A stretch of 64,000 bases of DNA, taken from positions 1-64,000 of the forward strand of contig JAUSAG010000009.1 of the NCBI GenBank assembly GCA_030652995.1, in the 5' to 3' direction. The first letter of the stretch is position 1, and each line of letters starts with the position of its first letter. Source of the DNA: Methylotenera sp. (GTDB lineage: Bacteria > Pseudomonadota > Gammaproteobacteria > Burkholderiales > Methylophilaceae). This document shows, in pieces, positions 32,748 to 47,924 of the stretch. Both the position numbers and the translations under genes were made by a program. Under the pieces are notes generated by a model. The model was not told the DNA's origin and searched no databases. It worked only from the letters and a program-made list of their open reading frames with translations.

Positions 32748-34229
32748 TTAAAGCAGTTGCATCGTGCTAAGTGTTCTTGTTCTGATTTTTTTTAATAATT
32801 TGGCATCATCAATGAGTGATTCTCCAAAACTTGGTACTAAAGTTTTCATTTTCCTCTGCCAGTCATCAGTTTTCAGTTGCGTTTTAAAACAGCGTTCAAT
32901 CACGTTAATCATGGCTTGTACAGACACTGATGCACCAGGGGATGCACCAAGCAGAGCCGCTGCTGAGCCATCTTTTGCGCTGACGATTTCAGTACCAAAC
33001 TCAAGCTTGCCACCTTTTTCATCACACCTTTTGATCACTTGAACGCGTTTGCCAGCATGTGCTAACTGCCAATCAGACTCAACCGCTTGTGGATAAAACT
33101 GGCGTAAAGACGCAATGCGTGAAGTATGTGATTGCAGCGCTTCGCCCATGAGATAGCGTGTTAAATCTAGATTGTGCCAGCCAACGCCTAGCATGGCTTT
33201 GAAATTGTTAGGTTTGATTGACTTCAACAAATCCCAATACGAACCTTCCTTTAAAAACTTTGTAGTGAACCCAGCGTAAGGACCGAATAGCAGGGCAGAT
33301 TTGCCATTGATAATGCGGGTATCTAAGTGTGGTACAGACATGGGTGGCGCGCCCAACGCGGCCTTACCATAGACTTTGCTGTCATGTTGCCTAACGATGT
33401 CAGGATTGCTACATACCAGCCACTGACCACTGACTGGAAAGCCGCCATAGCTTTTGCCTTCTGGGATGCTAGCCTTTTGTAATAACGCTAATGCTCCGCC
33501 CCCTGCGCCTAAAAATACAAAACCGGCATCAATCTTTGTCGTATGTTTACTGGCAAGGTCTTTTAAGCCAACCTGCCAACGCCCGTTGTTTAGTTGTTTT
33601 AAGCTTTGCACTTCCGTATTGAGATTAAGATCAAAGTTATTTTTAGAGGCTAACGAGTTGATTAAGCTACGTGTTAATGCGCCAAAGTCAACATCACATC
33701 CATAACTTACACGTGTCGCCGCTACTTTTTGATGGCTATCGCGTTGTTCCATCATCAGCGGCATCCAGCTTTTTAGCTGAGTTATATCATCACTAAATTC
33801 CATATCCTGAAATAGATGATTTGCTTTGAGTCGCTGATAGCGCTTGCGTAAAAACTCAACATTATCATCACCCCAAACAAAGCTTAAATGCGGTGTTGTA
33901 TTGATGAATTTTTTTGGGGTAGGCAGTGTATTTTGTTCAACAAGGTAAGACCAAAATTGCAGCGAAACCTCAAAAGAAGCGTTAATGGCCAAGGCGCGGT
34001 CGATTTCTACAACGCCATCTGAACGCATAGGCGTGTAATTGAGTTCACAATAGCCCGCGTGCCCAGTGCCTGCATTATTCCACGCATCGGTACTTTCTGC
34101 GGCAATCTGAGGTAAGCGCTCTATCATCATCATGCTTAGTGAGCTATCTAATTCAGATAACAATGAGGCTAGGGTGGCGCTCATGATGCCGCTACCGACT
34201 AATAAAACATCTACTTTTTTTTCAGTCAT
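32748..34229 (-). CDS. mqo: Malate:quinone oxidoreductase
   Basis: The 493-residue FAD enzyme oxidises malate to oxaloacetate and passes electrons to the quinone pool at the membrane. The N-terminal VDVLLVGSGIMSATLASLLSEL nucleotide motif, NNAGTGHAGYCELNYTP, FVFLGAGGGALALLQK and GASPGASVSVQAM are all typical. It is a peripheral membrane enzyme with no signal peptide. It lies downstream of the redox operon on the same strand, 51 bases after the cytochrome gene, and could share its transcript. Confidence 0.95.
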   Translation of the reverse strand: MTEKKVDVLLVGSGIMSATLASLLSELDSSLSMMMIERLPQIAAESTDAWNNAGTGHAGYCELNYTPMRSDGVVEIDRALAINASFEVSLQFWSYLVEQNTLPTPKKFINTTPHLSFVWGDDNVEFLRKRYQRLKANHLFQDMEFSDDITQLKSWMPLMMEQRDSHQKVAATRVSYGCDVDFGALTRSLINSLASKNNFDLNLNTEVQSLKQLNNGRWQVGLKDLASKHTTKIDAGFVFLGAGGGALALLQKASIPEGKSYGGFPVSGQWLVCSNPDIVRQHDSKVYGKAALGAPPMSVPHLDTRIINGKSALLFGPYAGFTTKFLKEGSYWDLLKSIKPNNFKAMLGVGWHNLDLTRYLMGEALQSHTSRIASLRQFYPQAVESDWQLAHAGKRVQVIKRCDEKGGKLEFGTEIVSAKDGSAAALLGASPGASVSVQAMINVIERCFKTQLKTDDWQRKMKTLVPSFGESLIDDAKLLKKIRTRTLSTMQLL

Positions 34230-34280: not shown

Positions 34281-35945
34281 TTATTCTTTTTCTTTAGGTG
34301 ATTGTTCTGATATGGAAAGCGCCTTATCAAGTGTGTCCTGGGTGGAACTTTCACTTGAAATGGGTGCGTTAACTGTTGCATGTACGCTATGAAAGTCATG
34401 GCAGGACATGCAGCCGCTGGCAATGCGTTTGTGTTTCGGGCGCTTGCCAGAGTGGCAGCGCAAGCAAGAGTCGCGGTCGGGCATGGCTACATCTGCGCTG
34501 GTTTCTGAAGATTCTACCTGATGACACGAATCACATTGTTGCGTGCGATGTGAGGCATGTTTAAATCGCGCCTTACTGAACCAGTCCTGGTTAATTTGCA
34601 ATGGTTTTACGCGCCATGGTAAAGCATCTCCTTTATTTGACGTTTCAACCACATGGCAGTACGCACAACCGTCAGTTTTTAATTTTTCTGAATAGCGCTC
34701 AACATTTTTTGGCGCAAATAATTTTAGTGTATTCATCACTATTTGCTCTGAGCCATGCGGCACATCAAACTTCGAGTCTGCGGAGCCCACCTTGAGCTCG
34801 CCCGCATGGCAAGCCGCACAATCGCGCTTATAAGCGATTGGTTCAAATTGCAACTCTTTACCTTTTGACTGGTGGCAAGTTTTACATGAAAGCTCGCGTA
34901 CATCCCACATGCCATTAGGACCCTGCACTTTTCCGATATGCTGCGAATGTGGAAAATTCAGCCCTGAATTTTCAATAAGCCGTTCTTTTTCAGTTTGCGG
35001 GATCCGCTCAATTTTCTCGTTATTATCATGGCTACTACCTGTTTTGAATGTGAGTTTAAAACCAGGATGGTCTTTATCAAAATCATGAATATCCGATAGT
35101 TTTGTGGTGGCATTAATGGCTTTAATGTTGCCGTGACACTTAATGCACATGCCATCATCTTGCCTTGTTAACGGTTGTGGTGCTTTGTGTTCACGATGAC
35201 ATTCACCACAGCGAGTACTGCCTAAAAACTTGCGTTTAGCTTCAAAAGCATGATGTTGTAGCACTGGGTCAGTAATGTGCGGTGTAGTGTCGCGATGACA
35301 CTGCATACAGGCTTGGTCAGTCACCTGTTGTGTCAGAGTTTGATGGCAATTAGCGCATTGTGAGCCAAAATGCCGATGCGCATTTGAAATATGCCCTGGA
35401 CTCCACACCCTATCAAAACCAAAGGGGAGTTCTGCCATGGTGTCGTGTAGTTTTGGGATTAAATTTTGTGCTAACGGTAATGCTAAAAATAATAGCGCAA
35501 TCAATACCGCCATCCATATAGATAAACGTCTTTTAAACCGTGTCGCCCCTGGTAGAGGTTCGTGTGTCCGTGATTTGATGTTTTGAAAATCATCAGGCAA
35601 GCTGTGCGCCAGCGCGAGTGATATTGATAAATCGATATCAGGGGGCGTTGGCTCTACTGTTAACAGATACGGCCCCACCATGATTTGCATGCCTTGTGTT
35701 AGCGGAATGTTTTGCCTAGATGCAGAATCAACTTCTAATTCGCCATTGAGCGCTATTAAATGTAGCTCACCATCATCACGGCGCTTGATTACCGCGTGGT
35801 GCATAGCAATGCGTGGGTCAGGCAAGTGAATGGTGCACTCTGCACCGCGGCCAAACGCGATTTCCTCTGCGACCAATGTGCGATAACTCCGCATGGGTAA
35901 ACCACGTGAGTTTTGGGTGATTTTAATTAACAGACAATTGATCAT
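34281..35945 (-). CDS. FHA-domain, membrane-anchored decaheme cytochrome c (cytochrome c3/c7-like)
   Basis: The 554-residue protein joins three parts. An N-terminal FHA-like phosphothreonine-binding domain (about 18-105) includes IAFGRGAECTIHLPDPRIAMHHAVIKRR. One membrane helix is at about 143-163 (WMAVLIALLFLALPLA). A large C-terminal region has exactly ten CxxCH heme-attachment motifs (CANCH, CMQCH, CGECH, CIKCH, CKTCH, CAACH, CAYCH, CDSCH, CLRCH, CMSCH). FHA would be cytoplasmic and the hemes periplasmic. FHA on a multiheme cytochrome is an unusual fusion. It begins 3 bases after the membrane-protein stop, so the operon order is flavoprotein, membrane cytochrome, then this gene. The electron acceptor or donor is unknown. 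Confidence 0.85.
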   Translation of the reverse strand: MINCLLIKITQNSRGLPMRSYRTLVAEEIAFGRGAECTIHLPDPRIAMHHAVIKRRDDGELHLIALNGELEVDSASRQNIPLTQGMQIMVGPYLLTVEPTPPDIDLSISLALAHSLPDDFQNIKSRTHEPLPGATRFKRRLSIWMAVLIALLFLALPLAQNLIPKLHDTMAELPFGFDRVWSPGHISNAHRHFGSQCANCHQTLTQQVTDQACMQCHRDTTPHITDPVLQHHAFEAKRKFLGSTRCGECHREHKAPQPLTRQDDGMCIKCHGNIKAINATTKLSDIHDFDKDHPGFKLTFKTGSSHDNNEKIERIPQTEKERLIENSGLNFPHSQHIGKVQGPNGMWDVRELSCKTCHQSKGKELQFEPIAYKRDCAACHAGELKVGSADSKFDVPHGSEQIVMNTLKLFAPKNVERYSEKLKTDGCAYCHVVETSNKGDALPWRVKPLQINQDWFSKARFKHASHRTQQCDSCHQVESSETSADVAMPDRDSCLRCHSGKRPKHKRIASGCMSCHDFHSVHATVNAPISSESSTQDTLDKALSISEQSPKEKE

Positions 35946-35948
35946 GCG

Positions 35949-36779
35949 TTACCAATAAGCAAAAACAGCAATGACATGTGCCAGCATCGCCACCAGCAAT
36001 GCGATGGTGAATGGCACATGAAAATATAACCAAAAACCTAATCGAGCGCGATACATTAAATCCTGGCGCGCGCGCCTTACCAAGGACTCACGCCGTACCA
36101 TGATTGAATATAAATCTCGATACAATTTACGTTGCTCAGGGGATAGTGTGTTGTCCACTGTCGAGAGTTGTTGAACCGCGATGGCGGAAGGGCAGTTTGG
36201 TTGAAATCCTCTGAGTTGCTCTAACAAGCCAATGCCGATAGAAGTTTCGCCGCAAGCGTGCGCAACAACGTTATTGATGTGGTCTGGCATCAATAATGCA
36301 ATCTGTCGGGCTAACTTGTCAGATTCAGCGATGCGTAACAACAAGCCATCCAAGTTATCCTCACCCATGTTCTCGGTCATTTGGCGTGGATAAATCATGT
36401 AAGTGTAATTACCAAAAAATCCACTGATCACTACGATTAACAACATGGCGTAGGCAAATGTATGAATGTTTAGCCCGAAGTGAAAGCCGCTGTGCAAGGT
36501 AACAATAACTGTAAGCGCTGTGCCCAAGTAGATGTGCGCAGATAGCCAGCCTTGCGTGGCGCCGGAGCCACGATAACGCCGCTTGCGCACACCATACCAA
36601 GCCATCCACAACACCATTAACGCTGAAATAGTGCCGAGTCCATAGCCAAGCCAGCTACCACCATAATGTCCAACTGCTGGCTCAAATAACAAATAAGCAG
36701 CAAAAGCGATCAGAATGATAACGACCGCTAGTTTAAAATAGAGGTAATTTTTAAAGTCAAAAATGTTACTGCGTTGCAT
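35949..36779 (-). CDS. b-type-cytochrome-like integral membrane protein
   Basis: The 276-residue protein has about five membrane helices (near 14-32, 43-60, 82-98, 108-126 and 250-274). Histidines fall within or next to helices in pairs that could ligate heme (AHIYLGT, LHSGFHFGLNIHTFAYAM, FHVPFTIALLVAMLAHVIAVF), as in cytochrome b561 or ferric-reductase-like proteins. Between helices 4 and 5 is a soluble loop of about 110 residues. Placed between a cytosolic Fe-S flavoprotein and a periplasmic decaheme cytochrome, it is the natural candidate for carrying electrons across the membrane. No named family was recognised; the heme assignment is inference. Confidence 0.6.
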   Translation of the reverse strand: MQRSNIFDFKNYLYFKLAVVIILIAFAAYLLFEPAVGHYGGSWLGYGLGTISALMVLWMAWYGVRKRRYRGSGATQGWLSAHIYLGTALTVIVTLHSGFHFGLNIHTFAYAMLLIVVISGFFGNYTYMIYPRQMTENMGEDNLDGLLLRIAESDKLARQIALLMPDHINNVVAHACGETSIGIGLLEQLRGFQPNCPSAIAVQQLSTVDNTLSPEQRKLYRDLYSIMVRRESLVRRARQDLMYRARLGFWLYFHVPFTIALLVAMLAHVIAVFAYW

Positions 36780-36793
36780 GCAATTAGCGCTTT

Positions 36794-39250
36794 CTAAGTT
36801 TCATCTAAGCCAAGTAAAGCGACTTCACCAGAGGTGCCGCTGGCATAACCCAACAAACCTTCAGGATTAACACGTAGTGCAGCGCCAACAGGGCAGGCAC
36901 GTACGCATACAGGACCATCGGTAATATCTTTACACATATCGCATTTAACCGCGACCTTGCTACTATTGGTTGTGGGTAATGCTTTTGGCTCAATGCCCAG
37001 CATAATTTGCCACAGGCTACGTTCTGGCTGATCTTGAATCACAGCCATTTGAATCACGTCATACGGACAGTTCTGCTGGCAATTGCCACAACCGATGCAG
37101 CTATCATCTATATAAACTTCGCCATGTGGTGCACGGTGAATCGCGTCTGGCGGACAGTCTTTCATGCAATGCGGATGCTCGCAATGACGACATGAAGTAG
37201 GAACGCGGATGTTAGCAAAAATAGGTCCGGTGTCACGATCTAATCGCGTTGCACCGCCATGGGTATCGGCACAGGCTTGTTCACAGTGATTGCAGCGGAT
37301 ACATAATGACTCATCAATCAGCAATACATCAGTTGCTTCGCCAACGCCTTGTTGAATGAGGAACGAGATTAAGTTGGATTGCGTAGATTGGCTAGTAAAC
37401 GCACCGCTGCCATCAGAGGCACTTTCAAGTTGTTGACGTTTTTCTTGTTCTTGTAAATGATTAAGGTAGCGTGCATCAAGCGCGTTACGAATTTCAGGAT
37501 TTCGCGCGATGATGTCGCGCATACGATCTGCTTTAATCAACACGGCCTCAGTGGCTACTGCTGCACGCACGGTGGCGTAGCGGGGCTCGCCAGAAACCAG
37601 TGACATTTCTCCAACATAGTTACCCGCAGCCACATAAAACAGTACCACCTCGCGCCCGCCTATCATGCGGGATACGGTCACTGAACCACTTTGAATCAGG
37701 TACAAACCATCTGCTTCATCACCTTCGTGAAAAAGGTCTTCACCGGCTTCATAACTTTTAAGCGTTGCTTGACTGGCAACATCATTAAGGTCCTCTTCAC
37801 TTAAGGAGAGCCCAATACAAACTTGAACCACACTTTTAATGGCGACTTCGTTCAGCATGCGGCGCATAGCCTGTACTGAGCCTATCAGCTTTTGCATCAC
37901 ACGCCGTGGCGTTTCGATAATGACGCACTTGGTACGTGCGCGAACTGTGCCGGGCCTGCGGCGACCGGAAACCAAAGCAAGTTCGCCAAAAAAGTCGCCA
38001 GCTTTAAGTGTGGCATCTGGTTCGTTATCTTCATCAATCAGAACATCTAGTTCACCTTCAATGATAGAAAAGAAAGTGGTGCTGTAATCGTTGCGTTTAA
38101 AGATAATATCGCCAGGTTCTGACAATAAAATATTACTTTCCAACACCAGTTCACGTAATTGCAACGTATTGAGCATGGCGAGAATTGGCACGTTTTTTTG
38201 AATTTTATACAGCACATCATCAACCCCACGATCATTGCAAAAGTTTGAGAACTTTTCACGCAACAAAGTAGTATCAGCTGGCTCTACATCATTGCCAAGA
38301 ATATACTCAATAACCTCATAGCCTTGGTTGATGCCTTGCTTAATTAAAGGGTAACCGGCAAGTGCGCCTATAATATAGAGCCCGGATACATTGGATTCAT
38401 AACTGGCAGAAAGTAGCGGCAGGGCACCCACATCATCTGTCGGGAAAGCAATGCCAAAGCTCTCCAATAAGGGGCGCGATGGCAGCGCGCCAAGTCGAGC
38501 AATAATGCGGTGACACGGAATGCGTTCAACCCCCTTGGGCGTACTGGCAAAAAGGGTGATTGGAAATTCACCTGTGGCATTTTCTTCAATGGATTGAGGT
38601 TTGGTTTCGAGCAACCAATCTATAGCACCTTTTTGCCGTGATTCCATTAACTGGCTCAGGTTGCTTTCTTTTAAATTACTAAAGTCTTCAGCACGGTTAA
38701 CGATGATAACTTGGTTTTTATTGGTAAGTGCCAGCGCGTTTTCTACGCCACTATCACCACCGCCCACCACAATAATGGTTTCATTTTGGTAAGCGTCTGG
38801 GTCATCCAATTGATATTGTACTTGTGGTAAATCTTCACCGGGAATCCCTAGCCTGCGTAGATTACCTTGCACACCAATGGCAAGAACCACGTGATTAGCG
38901 GTGAACTTTTCGCCCTCTACCAATTCAACTTCAAGCTTGTTTTTAAGGCGTGAAATCGCAACCACTTTAGCTTCATAGCGCACATTAACTTTGTGATCTG
39001 CAATGGATTTTTCCCAATTTTCAAGCACAGTTTCACGTAATGATGCCGTAAATGGAAGCGGGCTACGAAGAGGTAATCCACGAGGCTCAGACATCACTAG
39101 TTTACCGCGCTGATAGCTACGAATCGTGCTTGCTACAGTTTGCGACGCCTCTAGCAATATGTATGAAACGCCATGCTCGGCCGCTCGGATGGCTGCTGAT
39201 AATCCACTGGGTCCGGCTCCAATAATAATGACATTAAAATGTTTGGGCAT
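36794..39250 (-). CDS. FAD/NAD(P) oxidoreductase with two cyclic-nucleotide-binding domains and a four-cluster ferredoxin domain
   Basis: The 818-residue protein has four visible modules. A thioredoxin-reductase-like FAD/NAD(P) domain (about 1-320) has IIGAGPSGLSAAIRA and VVVGGGDSGVENALAL but no redox-active CxxC. Cyclic-nucleotide-binding domain 1 (about 360-470) has FFGELALVSGRRRPGTVRA, and domain 2 (about 485-610) has YVGEMSLVSGEPRYATVRA with the phosphate-binding Arg. A ferredoxin region (about 649-790) has four Cys groups (CIRCNHCEQAC, CRHCEHPHCMKDC, CIGCGNCQQNC, CDMCK..CVRAC) as in DmsB/NrfC-type electron-transfer subunits. No signal peptide is seen, so it is cytoplasmic. It leads the operon. 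It probably channels NAD(P)H or quinone electrons to the membrane partner under control of a small nucleotide. The function is not known to me. Confidence 0.85.
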   Translation of the reverse strand: MPKHFNVIIIGAGPSGLSAAIRAAEHGVSYILLEASQTVASTIRSYQRGKLVMSEPRGLPLRSPLPFTASLRETVLENWEKSIADHKVNVRYEAKVVAISRLKNKLEVELVEGEKFTANHVVLAIGVQGNLRRLGIPGEDLPQVQYQLDDPDAYQNETIIVVGGGDSGVENALALTNKNQVIIVNRAEDFSNLKESNLSQLMESRQKGAIDWLLETKPQSIEENATGEFPITLFASTPKGVERIPCHRIIARLGALPSRPLLESFGIAFPTDDVGALPLLSASYESNVSGLYIIGALAGYPLIKQGINQGYEVIEYILGNDVEPADTTLLREKFSNFCNDRGVDDVLYKIQKNVPILAMLNTLQLRELVLESNILLSEPGDIIFKRNDYSTTFFSIIEGELDVLIDEDNEPDATLKAGDFFGELALVSGRRRPGTVRARTKCVIIETPRRVMQKLIGSVQAMRRMLNEVAIKSVVQVCIGLSLSEEDLNDVASQATLKSYEAGEDLFHEGDEADGLYLIQSGSVTVSRMIGGREVVLFYVAAGNYVGEMSLVSGEPRYATVRAAVATEAVLIKADRMRDIIARNPEIRNALDARYLNHLQEQEKRQQLESASDGSGAFTSQSTQSNLISFLIQQGVGEATDVLLIDESLCIRCNHCEQACADTHGGATRLDRDTGPIFANIRVPTSCRHCEHPHCMKDCPPDAIHRAPHGEVYIDDSCIGCGNCQQNCPYDVIQMAVIQDQPERSLWQIMLGIEPKALPTTNSSKVAVKCDMCKDITDGPVCVRACPVGAALRVNPEGLLGYASGTSGEVALLGLDET

Positions 39251-39423
39251 GAAGTCTTCGATTGTTTTTAAATTGCAATTTTAAAAGGCGTATAGATGGT
39301 GTCATATACGAGGTGATAAGTCAAAATTGAGTGGGCTAAAAAACTTAAGTTTTCAAGCTTTATTGCTTCAACCCGATGAAGTATCAACTTCCATTCGGCC
39401 AGACCTTGTCTAAGGCGTTGCAT

Positions 39424-39456
39424 CCATTCACATTTCGACAAACTCAATGTGAATGG
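39424..39456. repeat. 11-bp perfect hairpin repeat
   Basis: CCATTCACATT (39424-39434) and AATGTGAATGG (39446-39456) flank TCGACAAACTC. The layout and the TTCGACAAxCTCA core resemble dispersed palindromic repeats found in many proteobacteria. Confidence 0.6.
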
Positions 39457-39864
39457 ACTTCAAATACCACTAAACCGAATCAATAGAATGTGTTTTTCTT
39501 TTAATTATTTGGGTATATGTATTCGATGATTGATTTTGCATTTTGTAATTGCGAAGCATAAACAAATTATATGATTGATTTGGCAAAGTTACTCAGAGAT
39601 TAAGTGCCATATTGCGGACGCTGCTGAAGCGTCACTATCAACTCACTTCTCTCACCAATTTTTTTCTGATAGGTAGTTAAGTGGGATATTGCAGTTAGAC
39701 ATACTTAATTACTGTATGACTCGTTACAACTGTGAGTGCTTAAACCTGATTGCCACATAGCTAACATTCACAAAATTGAACTGTCTCAAGCCCCATTTAA
39801 AAACAGAGTCTAAATGACATCAACAGAGGACTAAATTGCTGGATAAATTCCGGTAAGAAAATTT

Positions 39865-39911
39865 ATTGTTCATAACAATTTAAAGATAATTTAAACTCAA
39901 TGCATTGAGTT
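39865..39911. promoter_or_regulatory. Two palindromes immediately upstream of the diguanylate cyclase
   Basis: ATTGTT-CAT-AACAAT (39865-39879) and the uninterrupted 18-base palindrome AACTCAATGCATTGAGTT (39894-39911) lie 58 and 26 bases before the predicted TTG start. Beyond one mismatched pair, the second one's symmetry continues for three more bases on each side. They are good operator candidates. Confidence 0.5.
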
Positions 39912-39936
39912 AAAATTATGTTATTAATATCTGCAT

Positions 39937-41229
39937 TTGAGAATTCAATTGAAAAACAAGCTACTACACCATTACGCTGAACTCGACTTAGATGCCGTAT
40001 TTGAAAAATTCTATGACACGATGCTTTCAAATGCAGACTTCTCTGGATTTTTCAAAGATACCGCGCAGATTAAGTCATTGGTAGTACGTCAAAAGCAGTT
40101 TCTGCTTGATTCAATTCTAATGACCGATGAGGAAATCAAAACGCGCTATGTAGCATTGGGTGAAATGCACCACCAAATCAATGTACCTTATGTCGATTAT
40201 ATGGCGGGGATGAATATATTAGAGCAAGGGTTAATTCTGGCAGTGGTCTCGCATCAAGAGTCTATGGAAATGCTAGAAACAACATTTCATTTTTTCAAGA
40301 TAATTCGCGCATACACGGCTAAGGGTTATTTGAATAAGATGCTTGAGGCTGATATTGAAGATATTGATCGCTATTTAACGCACGTGCAACGCGCCTCAGA
40401 AATTGACACATTGCTTGCCACTGAACGTATTATTTGGCTTAAAAATGTGGTTTTTGCTATCAAGGTGGGTAATCGTGCCGCAGCTCCAGCACTGCACATG
40501 CCACCAGATATTGTCGATAGTATCAAATCGGCCACTTCAGGTGATAACGCGCTTGCCAGTTACGCTGTAGATATGTCAGCTAGAATGGAAATGAATGCTA
40601 GGAATGTGTTCTACTTTCTAGATAAAGGCAGTTTCGAAGAGGCGCTTCCCTTATACCGTGAGCTCATGAGTATCTATAAGCTTACCTTGATGCTGACGAA
40701 TGTTGTCACCATCGCTTCTACCAATTTGCTAATGCAAAATCTGACAAAAGATACATTGACGGGTCTGTTAACCCGCCATTCATTTACATCCATCCTAAGC
40801 AGGGAACTCTCTATCGCCACTGCTGGGCAATATCAGCTCTCGTTCATTATGATTGATATAGATTTTTTTAAGAATGTGAACGACGTTTATGGACATATGG
40901 CAGGTGATTTAGTCCTTGCTAAAGTGGCGCAAACTGCTGCGGCAACTATGCGTGCTACTGATTATGCTTTCCGACAAGGTGGTGAAGAGTTCCTGCTTGT
41001 ACTTAAGGGCGCTTCACTAGTCATTACATGCGCACAAGCAGAAATAATGCGACAGAAAATTGAGAGTCTTGAATTTGAATTTGATGGCAAAAAATTTAAT
41101 GTAACGGCGAGTTTTGGTGTGGCGGTATTTAGCGCGCCGTTTGACTTGACGTATGAAGCCATGCTGGATGTCGTCGATAAGAAACTCTATGCCGCTAAAG
41201 AGACTGGGCGTAACCGCGTGGTTTCATAG
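39937..41229 (+). CDS. Diguanylate cyclase with N-terminal globin-coupled-sensor-like domain
   Basis: The 430-residue cytosolic protein has an all-helical N-terminal domain (about 10-165) resembling globin-coupled sensors. VVRQKQFLLDSI aligns with the E-helix region, and EMHHQINVPYVDYMAGM fits the segment carrying the proximal heme His. A linker region and a complete GGDEF domain (about 268-430) follow, with DTLTGLLTRHSF, MIDIDFFKNVNDVYGHMAGD and the active-site motif RQGGEEF. The domain should make cyclic di-GMP, possibly under oxygen or redox control. An inhibitory RxxD I-site is not obvious. The start codon is uncertain: TTG 39937 or TTG 39949. It faces away from the redox operon and shares its upstream region. 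Confidence 0.85.
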   Translation: MRIQLKNKLLHHYAELDLDAVFEKFYDTMLSNADFSGFFKDTAQIKSLVVRQKQFLLDSILMTDEEIKTRYVALGEMHHQINVPYVDYMAGMNILEQGLILAVVSHQESMEMLETTFHFFKIIRAYTAKGYLNKMLEADIEDIDRYLTHVQRASEIDTLLATERIIWLKNVVFAIKVGNRAAAPALHMPPDIVDSIKSATSGDNALASYAVDMSARMEMNARNVFYFLDKGSFEEALPLYRELMSIYKLTLMLTNVVTIASTNLLMQNLTKDTLTGLLTRHSFTSILSRELSIATAGQYQLSFIMIDIDFFKNVNDVYGHMAGDLVLAKVAQTAAATMRATDYAFRQGGEEFLLVLKGASLVITCAQAEIMRQKIESLEFEFDGKKFNVTASFGVAVFSAPFDLTYEAMLDVVDKKLYAAKETGRNRVVS

Positions 41230-43643: not shown

Positions 43644-45629
43644 ATGGCAGAAAAAGAATATGGCGCAGATTCAGTAAAGGTTTTACGTGGCTTAGAGCCA
43701 GTACGCGCTAGACCTGGCATGTACACTCGAACGGACTCTCCGACGCATATCGTGCAGGAAGTGATTGATAATGCGGCAGATGAAGCGCTTGGCGGTCATG
43801 CCACACATATTTCGGTCACTATTTTTAAGGATGGCGCAGTTGAGGTGTCCGACAATGGCCGAGGCATTCCTGTAGAAATTCCCACCGGTGAATCTCAACC
43901 AGCGGTTGAGTTGGTTTTTGTACAACTGCACGCTGGCGGTAAGTTTGATAAAGAGGATGAAAATAGTTCGTATCGTTTTTCTGGCGGTTTGCATGGCGTT
44001 GGTGTGTCTGTCACCAATGCACTTTCTACGCGCTTGGAAGTTAAAGTGAAGCGTGGTGGCAAGGTTCACGGGCTCACATTTGCGCATGGTGACTGCATGG
44101 AGCCATTAACGGAAATTGGAAAATGTTTGAAGAAAGACACTGGCACTACGGTGAAATGCTGGCCAGATCCTAAATATTTTGATTCGCCAAGCGTTTCTTT
44201 ACCACAGCTTGAGCATTTAATTAAATCTAAGGCAGTACTTCTGCGCGGAGTGAGTGTCACGCTGAGCATTGAAGGCGCGGAAGGTTTTGATGAGCGTTCG
44301 TGGACGTATGAAGGTGGATTGCCCCAGTACCTGGACGAGATGCTAGGCGAGCGTGACGAGATTGAAAATGAGTCGCCAATCCCGACCATTTCAGGCGAAT
44401 TTTACCATCACGAAAATAATGATGGCATATCAAAAGGTGAGGGCGCTCTATGGGCATTGTCATTTGGCGCAGGCGGCGCGCGCGGCGAATCCTACGTTAA
44501 CCTGATTCCAACGCTCTCAGGTGGTACGCATGAAGCTGGACTGCGTAATGGTGTATTTGAGGCGATCAAAACTTTCATGGAGCATCACAGTATGATGCAG
44601 CGTGGCATTAAAATTTCATCGGAAGATGTTTGGAGTAATGTAGGTTATGTATTGGCAGCAAAAGTCTTGGATCCTCAATTTCAAGGGCAAACTAAAGAAA
44701 AGCTGACCAATCGAGATGCCATGAAAATGGTGGCTTCATCCGTGAAGCCAATGATGGAAACTTGGTTGAGTCAAAATGTAGATTATGCAAAGCGTATTTC
44801 TGATTTAGTGAATCGTTCTGCGGCAGCGCGGAATAAATCGACACAAAAAATTGAGAAACGTAAATCTTCTGGCGTCAATATGATGCCATCCAAGCTTACC
44901 GACTGTGAAGCCGCGGGGACAATGGCCGCTGAATTGTTTTTAGTCGAGGGTGACTCGGCAGGCGGTAGCGCGAAGATGGGGCGCAATAATGAATTCCAGT
45001 CATTGCTACCATTGCGCGGCAAGGTGCTCAATACTTGGGAAGTGGATGCCGGACGTATTTTTGGTAATTCTGAGGTGCATGATATTTTTGTGGCACTAGG
45101 GATTGAGCCACATACCCTTAAAGATGACCCTGATTTTTCTGGCCTGCGTTACGGTAAATTATGTATTTTGTCGGATGCTGATGTGGATGGTTCGCATATT
45201 CAGGTGTTATTGCTCACCATGCTGTTGCGACACGCTCCTAAACTCATTGAACGTGGTCATGTGTATATTTCACAACCCCCGTTATATCGAATAGATGTGC
45301 CGGCACAAGGCAAGAATAAGCCGATGCGCAAAATCTATGTGTCTGACGATGCTGAAAAAATATTGATGATTGAAAAACTAAAACGCGAAGGCATTGCAGA
45401 AGAAAAGCTGGGTATTCAGCGTTTTAAAGGTCTGGGGGAAATGAACCCGGAGCAGTTGTGGGAAACCACGCTATGTCCAGATACACGGCGCTTAGTGCAG
45501 GTGAGGTTGCCTGAAAATGAGGTGGAAGGTGCGCATAAAATGTTTGATATGTTGATGGCAAAAAATGAGTCTCCAGCCAGAAAAGCCTGGATGGAGCGTC
45601 GTGGTAATGATGTTGAGGCCGATGTGTAA
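43644..45629 (+). CDS. parE: DNA topoisomerase IV subunit B
   Basis: The 661-residue GHKL ATPase subunit has EVIDNAADEALGGHATHISVTI, DNGRGIPVEIP, YRFSGGLHGVGVSVTNALS, the TOPRIM segment LFLVEGDSAGGSAKMGRNNEFQ with the acidic DADVDGSHIQ, and RFKGLGEMNPEQLWETT. Length and absence of a GyrB-type insertion fit ParE. AAGGAATAAGC precedes the ATG. parC follows immediately after the stop. Confidence 0.96.
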   Translation: MAEKEYGADSVKVLRGLEPVRARPGMYTRTDSPTHIVQEVIDNAADEALGGHATHISVTIFKDGAVEVSDNGRGIPVEIPTGESQPAVELVFVQLHAGGKFDKEDENSSYRFSGGLHGVGVSVTNALSTRLEVKVKRGGKVHGLTFAHGDCMEPLTEIGKCLKKDTGTTVKCWPDPKYFDSPSVSLPQLEHLIKSKAVLLRGVSVTLSIEGAEGFDERSWTYEGGLPQYLDEMLGERDEIENESPIPTISGEFYHHENNDGISKGEGALWALSFGAGGARGESYVNLIPTLSGGTHEAGLRNGVFEAIKTFMEHHSMMQRGIKISSEDVWSNVGYVLAAKVLDPQFQGQTKEKLTNRDAMKMVASSVKPMMETWLSQNVDYAKRISDLVNRSAAARNKSTQKIEKRKSSGVNMMPSKLTDCEAAGTMAAELFLVEGDSAGGSAKMGRNNEFQSLLPLRGKVLNTWEVDAGRIFGNSEVHDIFVALGIEPHTLKDDPDFSGLRYGKLCILSDADVDGSHIQVLLLTMLLRHAPKLIERGHVYISQPPLYRIDVPAQGKNKPMRKIYVSDDAEKILMIEKLKREGIAEEKLGIQRFKGLGEMNPEQLWETTLCPDTRRLVQVRLPENEVEGAHKMFDMLMAKNESPARKAWMERRGNDVEADV

Positions 45630-47924
45630 ATGGATAATACTCGTATGATTGAAAATAATAACGATAACGACAATGGTGCTGTTGCCATTGGTGAGTATGC
45701 TGAAGAAGCCTATTTAGCTTATGCCGTATCAGTGGTAAAAGGGCGCGCGCTTCCATCTGTAGAAGATGGGCAGAAGCCGGTGCAAAGACGCATTTTGTTC
45801 GCCATGAAGGAAATGGGCTTGGTTGCCGGCGTTAAGCCGGTAAAGTCGGCGCGTGTTGTGGGTAATGTGTTGGGTATGTACCACCCGCATGGCGATAGCT
45901 CTGCTTATGAAGCGGCGGTACGCTTGGCGCAAGACTTTACGTTACGCTACCCACTCATTGACGGTCAGGGTAACTTTGGCTCACGTGATGGTGATGGCGC
46001 GGCGGCAATGCGATACACCGAAATGCGCTTATCGCCGATTGCCGATTTACTTCTTTCTGAAATTGACCGCGGTACGGTTGATTTTCAAAGTAACTATGAT
46101 GGCGCTTTTCAAGAGCCTGTCTTGCTTCCAGCCAGATTGCCGATGATGCTACTTAATGGAGCTTCTGGTATTGCGGTGGGAATGGCAACAGAGATGATTC
46201 CACACAACATGCGCGAGATTGCAAATGCAGTATTGCATATGATGGATAAGCCCGATTGCACCACGGCGGAGTTGATGGTACACGTACCTGGACCAGATTT
46301 TCCAGGTGGCGGTCAGTTAATTTCGCAAACATCTGATATTCACGCAACTTATGAAACTGGACGCGGTTCGTTAAGATTACGTGCCAGATGGGTGGTAGAG
46401 CCAATGGCGCGTGGCCAGTGGCGCATTATTATCAATGAATTGCCGCACGGCGTTTCTGTTGAAACCGTCATGGCCGAAATTGAAGCGATTTCTAATCCCA
46501 AGCCCAAAAAAGATAAAAAGACGATAGACCAAGACCAGTTGCTGGTGAAACAGTCTGTGTTAAGTATGCTAGATTCAGTTAAAAGTGAGGGTAAAAAGGA
46601 TGTGCGTCTCATTCTTGAGCCAAAGACGAGTAAGATTTCCAGTGACGAGTTAATGGCATTTCTACTCGTTCACACCAGTATGGAGGTGTCATGCCCAGTC
46701 AACATGGTCATGATTGGTACTGATGGTCGCCCAGCGCAAAAAGGTTTGGTTAAAATCCTGCAAGAGTGGATTGAATTCCGTCTTAGCGTTGTACGCAGAC
46801 GGTGCCAGTTTGATTTGGACAAGATTAGTCGCCGCATTCATATTTTAGATGGTCGATTAATTGCGTTCCTGCATATTGACGAAATCATCAAAGTGATTCG
46901 TAATTCAGATGATCCCAAGGCAGACTTGATTGCCGCCTTTAAACTGAGTGAAATTCAGGCTGAAGACATTCTAGAAATTCGATTGCGTCAATTAGCAAGG
47001 CTTGAAGGCTTCAAAATAGAGCGGGAATTAAAAGAACTGCGTGAAGAGGCGGGCAGGTTGGAAGCGATTTTGACCAGCGAGTCTAAATTACGCAAACTGA
47101 CTGCTAAAGAAATTAAACAGGATGCAGAAAAATACGGTGACGAAAGGCGCACTTTGATTGAGCCCGTTGAACGTGTGCAGGGCGGTCAAAAAGCATTTGT
47201 TGTGGATGAGCCTGTGACTATTATGCTTTCTAAAAATGGCTGGATTAGATCTAGGCAAGGTCATGGTGTTGACCGCGAGTCAATCGCATGGAAAGCAGGG
47301 GATGGAGAATTCGCTGTACTTGAAACAAGGACTACATTACCTGTCGTCTTAATAGACGCTAACGGTCGATGCTACTCATTTGATGCGTCTATTGTTCCTG
47401 GTGGCAAAGGTGATGGCATCCCGGTCAGTTCCGTCATAGAGATTCAAAATGGTGCAAAATTAGTGCATGCGCTGTCTGGAAAAGATGATGATCGGTTCCT
47501 ATTCACCACCTCAAACAGCTACGGATTTGTCGCGCCCTTAAAGGGATTGATCGCCAGACCTAAAGCAGGCAAGGCATTTATGAAACCTGAAGATGGCGCA
47601 ACTATTTTCCCACCAATTAAATTAGATGCAAGCACCCATGTTGCAGTCACATCGTCCGAGAACAAACTACTGGTATTCCAAATCAGCGAAATAAATGAAT
47701 ACCCAAATGGCGGCAAAGGTGTGAGGATGATGGATATCCCTGACGGCGCCTTACTTATACGCGTTGAATTGTGCGATGGATTATCTGCAAGCGTGATTAT
47801 TAAAGGTAAAACAAAAACCGTTAGCGGTGAGGATTTGAGCAAACATCTTCTGAAGCGCGCTAAAAAAGGGTGTTTATTCAATGCAAATAATAATAGCCAA
47901 TCAAGACAGGGGAAGCTACTTTAG
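45630..47924 (+). CDS. parC: DNA topoisomerase IV subunit A
   Basis: The 764-residue breakage-reunion subunit has [19 protein letters not shown], the resistance-determining region [19 protein letters not shown] with the susceptible-type Ser residues, and the catalytic Tyr in [12 protein letters not shown] coiled-coil region and a C-terminal beta-pinwheel with several short blades (ending near 750) complete the protein. The ATG follows the parE stop directly, with no intergenic base. Together they decatenate replicated chromosomes. Confidence 0.96.

Follow-up and report, generated by a model that had tools for sequence, protein, structure and literature searches.

A conserved gene trio of Methylotenera and other bacteria encodes a candidate inner-membrane electron conduit with fused cyclic-nucleotide-binding and FHA domains

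The crossing of electrons through the inner membrane toward multiheme conduits is poorly known outside Shewanella and Geobacter. He et al. (2017; PMC5566968) describe the predicted porin-cytochrome complexes (PCC) PCC3 and PCC4, whose inner-membrane protein carries SGXXG and two WX3HX13H motifs; PCC4 clusters hold an iron-sulfur (Fe-S) gene with pfam13247 upstream of the membrane-protein gene (subgroup II), a decaheme cytochrome, 4- and 5-heme cytochromes and a porin. Porin-less cytochrome/membrane-protein pairs are also described there and were judged less likely to act extracellularly. In addition, Table 1 of PMC10734462 places Gallionellaceae cluster 403, a 'Forkhead-associated protein' with 10 heme motifs present in 27 of 87 genomes of iron-oxidising bacteria, under 'Other'. 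Here we analyse three adjacent genes in a 64,000-nucleotide stretch of Methylotenera sp. (assembly GCA_030652995.1, contig JAUSAG010000009.1, positions 1 to 64,000; hereafter the window). They encode a flavoprotein (fla), a five-helix membrane protein (mem) and a cytochrome that joins a forkhead-associated (FHA) domain, a transmembrane helix and ten hemes (cyt), and are called the trio below. The features are as follows.

36794..39250, minus strand: fla, a fusion of flavoprotein, tandem cyclic nucleotide monophosphate (cNMP)-binding and four-cluster ferredoxin parts, 818 amino acids (aa) (open reading frame (ORF), Pfam, alignment)
38291..39250, minus strand: FAD and NAD(P) domain, residues 1-320, of the TrxR/FNR/Bdr (YpdA) fold, without a CxxC disulfide (Pfam, alignment, fold match 7a7b with TMt 0.85)
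37883..38119, minus strand: cNMP-binding domain 1, with E423 and R432 (Pfam, alignment)
37499..37759, minus strand: cNMP-binding domain 2, with E548 and R557 (Pfam, alignment)
36842..37333, minus strand: HycB/HydN-like ferredoxin domain, residues 640-803, with 16 Cys for four [4Fe-4S] clusters (Pfam, alignment)
35949..36779, minus strand: mem, a five-helix membrane protein of 276 aa with two WX3HX13H and SGXXG, predicted di-heme b (alignment, AlphaFold2 model)
34281..35945, minus strand: cyt, an FHA-transmembrane-decaheme c-type cytochrome of 554 aa (ORF, Pfam, alignment)
35673..35855, minus strand: FHA domain, with Ala47 at the position of the phosphothreonine Ser (Pfam, alignment)
35463..35522 (approximate), minus strand: single membrane helix between the FHA domain (cytoplasm) and the hemes (periplasm) (translation, by eye)
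34389..35357, minus strand: ten CxxCH heme sites, residues 197-519, and ten further conserved His (alignment)
32748..34229, minus strand: malate:quinone oxidoreductase (Mqo) gene, 51 bases downstream of the trio (ORF, Pfam)

The trio resembles PCC4 in several respects. The mem protein shares its five helices, SGXXG and two WX3HX13H with the published type (both motifs occur in 77 of 79 mem sequences, window included), the gene upstream of mem likewise holds Fer4_11 (PF13247, E = 8.6e-10) as in subgroup II, and a ten-heme cytochrome is common to both. The 4-heme and 5-heme cytochromes of PCC4 were not found, as cyt is the only gene with more than one CxxCH among the window's reading frames of at least 80 codons and the genome yielded no PF13435 match (no genome-wide porin search was made), and we thus do not class the window as PCC4. 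Among the cases of PMC5566968, the window's trio comes closest to the porin-less pairs. The terms FHA, forkhead and cyclic nucleotide are absent from the main text of that paper, and the main text of PMC10734462 has 'forkhead' once only (Table 1) and no 'cyclic nucleotide'. Cluster 403 agrees with cyt of the Gallionella trio loci in FHA label, ten heme motifs and host family; it is probably the same protein, judged by these features, and no link to an operon, cNMP domain or flavoprotein was seen there. Beyond these two papers, no description of a trio with cNMP and FHA domains was found in the literature searched (main texts, few subscription papers), which included PMC6344600, PMC11475568, PMC12442390 and PMC11978286. 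The statement of the preliminary description that no such system had been described thus holds in part: none of the papers searched was found to describe the regulatory architecture, but the membrane-protein type with its Fe-S/decaheme cluster is that of PCC4, and a ten-heme FHA protein is listed in PMC10734462. A system of this kind has already been suggested in print, and the new point would be the fused tandem cNMP domains.

The three genes are kept together in many other genomes. A species-genome collection gave 163 pattern matches, 133 of which were confirmed as fla relatives; the best 80 of the 133 were examined, leaving out 53 more distant ones, and their hosts are Methylotenera, Gallionella, Lysobacterales, Colwellia, SAR116, Rhodospirillaceae and others. 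Two relatives, L130 (Mesoflavibacter) and L069 (Sulfuritalea), carry labels at odds with the nearest kin of their proteins, and these bins are possibly mislabelled. Hits also occur on 12 plasmids, from which two Sphingobium loci were examined. The order fla-mem-cyt on one strand is found at 74 of the 80 genome loci and at both plasmid loci; these counts and those below are not independent, since genomes of the genus overlap the scanned loci and several loci are near-copies. Three order-keeping loci (L077, L086 and L087) have cyt running off the contig end, and the trio of L058, L085 and L089 is cut by contig ends. L092 and L105 bear all trio genes in another order within one block of seven genes: mem, cyt, HbpS-like, barrel-like, LVIVD decaheme, tetraheme and fla. 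When 299 Pseudomonadota genomes were sampled evenly, 36 gave any mem match and nine a close one (E < 1e-40, window's genome included); all eight close homologues outside the window's genome have fla before and cyt after. From the weaker matches, 21 loci were fetched, and a fla-like gene neighbours two of them and a cyt-like gene three. Similarly, in a set of 41 genomes fla is present in each of the 17 that have a close cyt; G008, outside those 17, has a fla fragment at a contig end. Within the window, the gaps are 14 bases between fla and mem and 3 bases between mem and cyt. The tight three-gene operon of the preliminary description is thus borne out in the window, and its gene order in relatives.

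The residues expected to hold cofactors are nearly invariant in the alignments, which comprise, window included, 81 fla, 79 mem and 73 cyt sequences (those covering at most 85% of the query were left out). In fla, Pfam detects Pyr_redox_3 (2.6e-31) and two cNMP_binding domains (7.4e-39) besides Fer4_11, and the solved structures matched by its sequence are cGMP-dependent protein kinases (tandem cNMP), Bdr (flavin) and HycB subunits (ferredoxin). All 16 Fe-S Cys are conserved in 81 of 81 sequences, as are both pairs E423/R432 and E548/R557, which we take to be the Glu and Arg of the cNMP phosphate cassettes. In a fold search with the predicted model (mean predicted local distance difference test score (pLDDT) 76 over the whole, low in the ferredoxin part), the flavin domain is closest to Bdr (YpdA) and to TrxR-type ferredoxin-NADP reductases; unlike these, it is fused to cNMP and ferredoxin domains. 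It has no CxxC, C246 being its only Cys, and such a fold without CxxC suits electron transfer from NAD(P)H to Fe-S clusters. A thioredoxin or bacillithiol disulfide reductase was rejected, given the missing CxxC and a TIGR04018 score of 131.7 bits against a cut-off of 339.9.

The AlphaFold2 model of mem (mean pLDDT 86.5) shows an inserted helical segment besides its five long helices. Five His are invariant or nearly so, four of which form two HX13H pairs; these four, His 82, 96, 254 and 268, occur in 79 of 79 sequences and are candidates for binding b hemes. No Pfam family scores above its cut-off on mem. In cyt, Pfam finds FHA (1.8e-6) and Cytochrom_c3_2 (1.2e-13), and the heme Cys and His are kept in 72-73 of 73 sequences. 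Seven Gallionella rows have nine CxxCH, with CX4CH at the tenth site in the three of them inspected, and cyt of L128 has seven. Another ten His are conserved at 95% or more, as would fit ten bis-His hemes. The DmsE/MtrA decaheme family (TIGR03508) was tried and rejected, as cyt scores 26.3 bits against a cut-off of 192.2. The make-up of all three proteins is therefore as the preliminary description had it: a flavoprotein with two cNMP domains and four Cys clusters, a His-rich five-helix membrane protein and an FHA-transmembrane-decaheme cytochrome. The recurrence of trio order and ligands across classes argues against chance.

In many relatives the trio lies next to genes of outer-membrane conduit type. 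For neighbour-gene counts we used 83 trio loci, some of which end early, and family labels required a bit score above 150. Among the 46 non-Methylotenera-type loci (44 of the 80 and the two from Sphingobium), 31 have the trio beside at least one of three conduit-type families, namely an HbpS-like protein (linked in 30 loci), a barrel-like protein of ~600 aa (30 loci) and a decaheme cytochrome that bears LVIVD repeats (27 loci). A tetraheme cytochrome of C554 type lies nearby in 13 loci. Outer-membrane barrels end in Tyr or Phe, and so do all 28 complete copies of the barrel-like protein, although its match to the NCBIfam porin model is weak (20 of 250 bits in both copies scanned). The three families together may form an undescribed outer-membrane conduit of their own. 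The linked LVIVD decaheme, a protein of the relatives and outside the trio, weakly resembles ExtM of the Geobacter ext cluster (NCBIfam ExtM/ExtN/ExtO), scoring 64-73 bits where the cut-off is 800; a linked set of this weakly ExtM-like kind is seen at 15029-22442 of L117 and in its relatives. In place of these families, L104 and L130 encode a secreted 524-565-aa protein that matches no family, a barrel candidate by position and signal peptide only, together with 5-heme and 4-heme cytochromes, a gene set resembling that published for PCC4 (PMC5566968). In L130 this set is on the opposite strand, beyond a histidine-kinase gene.

The three conduit families were found in none of the 36 Methylotenera-type loci (24 of which have at least 8 kb downstream) and in none of the seven Gallionella loci (two with less than 5 kb downstream), and no LVIVD cytochrome was detected elsewhere in 18 Methylotenera and Gallionella assemblies (at most 16 distinct, mostly draft; positive controls 2/2). 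In L090 (5628-9208) a small monoheme cytochrome of lipoprotein-like type comes after the Gallionella trio, and by eye, genes on the other strand resemble cytochrome c maturation genes. In a fla tree of 56 rows, which has long branches and an arbitrary root and whose label 'none' also covers contigs with too little sequence to reveal neighbours, the Gallionella and Methylophilaceae rows group in one supported set of 17 (100/99), joined by the conduit-linked L105 and L092. This placement suggests that the outer part was likely lost in the Methylotenera/Gallionella line, depending on the root. A distant trio-like core is present on plasmid pEMTOL02 of Emticicia oligotrophica (L023, 8198-19996), with 23-heme and 40-heme cytochromes and CcsA. 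It consists of a mem-type protein with the same motifs and a two-cluster ferredoxin-flavoprotein, and lacks the cNMP and FHA domains. This points to the electron path as the core, with the receptor domains added to it.

We favour, with moderate confidence, the reading that the trio is an inner-membrane complex for electrons between NAD(P)H and the periplasm, the inner half of PCC4-like conduits, with a cNMP switch or spacer and an FHA dock. The three proteins would assemble in the inner membrane and connect the cytoplasmic NAD(P)H pool with the periplasm, electrons passing from NAD(P)H to FAD, four [4Fe-4S] clusters, two b hemes in mem and ten c hemes in cyt. In Methylotenera and Gallionella, this inner half would have been retained without a linked outer half. 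The tandem cNMP domains, located between flavin and ferredoxin, would probably act on the flavin-to-Fe-S step, either as a switch under ligand control or as a rigid spacer. The FHA domain would more probably serve to dock the cytochrome on a partner in the cytoplasm than to read phosphothreonine. Conserved cofactor ligands, operon conservation and the linkage to outer-membrane conduit genes in relatives lend good support to the claim of a conduit that connects cytoplasm and periplasm. The accompanying claim of gating by phosphoprotein binding fares poorly. The FHA Gly-Arg is present in 73 of 73 sequences, and the FHA Arg and His are both present in the window's protein. The Ser that we take to be the phosphothreonine contact, as positioned by alignment to known FHA chains with weak E-values (0.24-0.32), is kept in just 15 of 73 cyt sequences and is Ala47 in the window, so that a family-wide role as phosphothreonine reader is rejected. 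A search for FHA in the weak relatives L018 and L019 gave no output.

Several observations weigh against the favoured reading. L124, the sixth of the 80 loci that depart from the order, has mem and cyt together with fla apart; G025 has distant fla and cyt relatives on different contigs; and G027 shows a weak, distant cyt match that starts at residue 173, without the FHA part, and no fla at E 1e-60. The best rows of the fold searches with mem (Foldseek and VIA-align) are helical bundles of sensor domains and uninformative. As a periplasmic partner, the window's genome (completeness 99.96%) offers no Cytochrome_C7 match other than cyt, no C554 (PF13435) and no LVIVD cytochrome. The likeness to PCC4 is one of published motifs and gene order. 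Finally, class III cyclase presence does not track the trio among 16 genomes of the genus, being 8/11 with the trio and 4/5 without the full trio.

That electron flow is gated by a small nucleotide, as proposed earlier, is plausible. Only tentatively do we go further and suggest a second-messenger valve, in which cyclic-nucleotide binding at the tandem domains would open or close the flow between NAD(P)H and the envelope, so that export or import would be switched allosterically, beyond gene expression. A serious possibility, short of our preference, is that the cNMP domains serve only as structural spacers, or that their ligand is something other than cAMP/cGMP. Class III and class I cyclases were not detected in the window's genome by searches of these two classes alone (the same searches were positive for class III in five and for class I in one of 14 control genomes), and four Methylotenera cyclase loci, flanks included, match ORFs in only two of 83 trio loci, L109 alone being matched by all four. 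The invariance of the cassette Glu and Arg in both domains of all 81 sequences speaks for a cyclic-nucleotide ligand. So does a gene for a SpdA/CpdA-like phosphodiesterase (metallophosphoesterase), which scores under both curated cut-offs, directly after the trio on the Sphingobium megaplasmids (L021, 13800-14648; L022, 10802-11650).

Rather unlikely, in our view, is that mem trades electrons with the quinone pool and that the trio is an NAD(P)H/quinone/cytochrome junction instead of a direct wire. The membrane protein of PCC3/PCC4 was modelled as quinone-active in PMC5566968, mem has a weak Pfam match to Ni_hydr_CYTB (E = 0.051), and the Mqo gene lies downstream of the trio at the same position in 10 of the 83 loci, all Methylotenera-type; in this subset of Methylotenera it may belong to the operon as a fourth gene. 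Mqo was, however, not seen in the other 73 loci (some end early), including every non-Methylotenera locus, and no quinone site was identified in the trio. Compared with that published model, which goes via quinone, the trio would join NAD(P)H directly to c-type hemes.

As for direction, we slightly favour outward reduction over inward flow. Inward reduction of NAD(P)+ is uphill unless energy is supplied. We consider it improbable that periplasmic or extracellular donors reduce NAD(P)+ via the trio as a reverse electron supply in iron oxidisers, since none of the three genes is an ion-pump subunit and the trio is widespread (e.g., Lysobacter, Colwellia and Sphingobium), even though Gallionella carries it, 27 of 87 genomes of iron oxidisers have a ten-heme-motif FHA protein (PMC10734462, Table 1) and PMC5566968 discusses PCC4 for Fe(II) oxidation. 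With apparently intact allosteric pockets, and with methylotrophs, relatives of iron oxidisers and marine bacteria, some of them cultured, as hosts, the trio would be a testable candidate for methylotroph electron export in anoxic lake water, a hypothesis put forward in PMC6344600.

A protoglobin-GGDEF gene (39937-41229, plus strand), for a diguanylate cyclase of oxygen-sensing type, adjoins the trio on the other strand. It was rejected as a conserved neighbour, with matches near the trio in just two of 83 loci at 33-39% identity. No FNR-type box was found upstream of the trio in 39251-39936, and one-mismatch sites across the window number 14 versus 9.3 expected. Further along, 43644-47924 (plus strand) holds a pair of type II topoisomerase genes, GyrB/ParE-like and GyrA/ParC-like.

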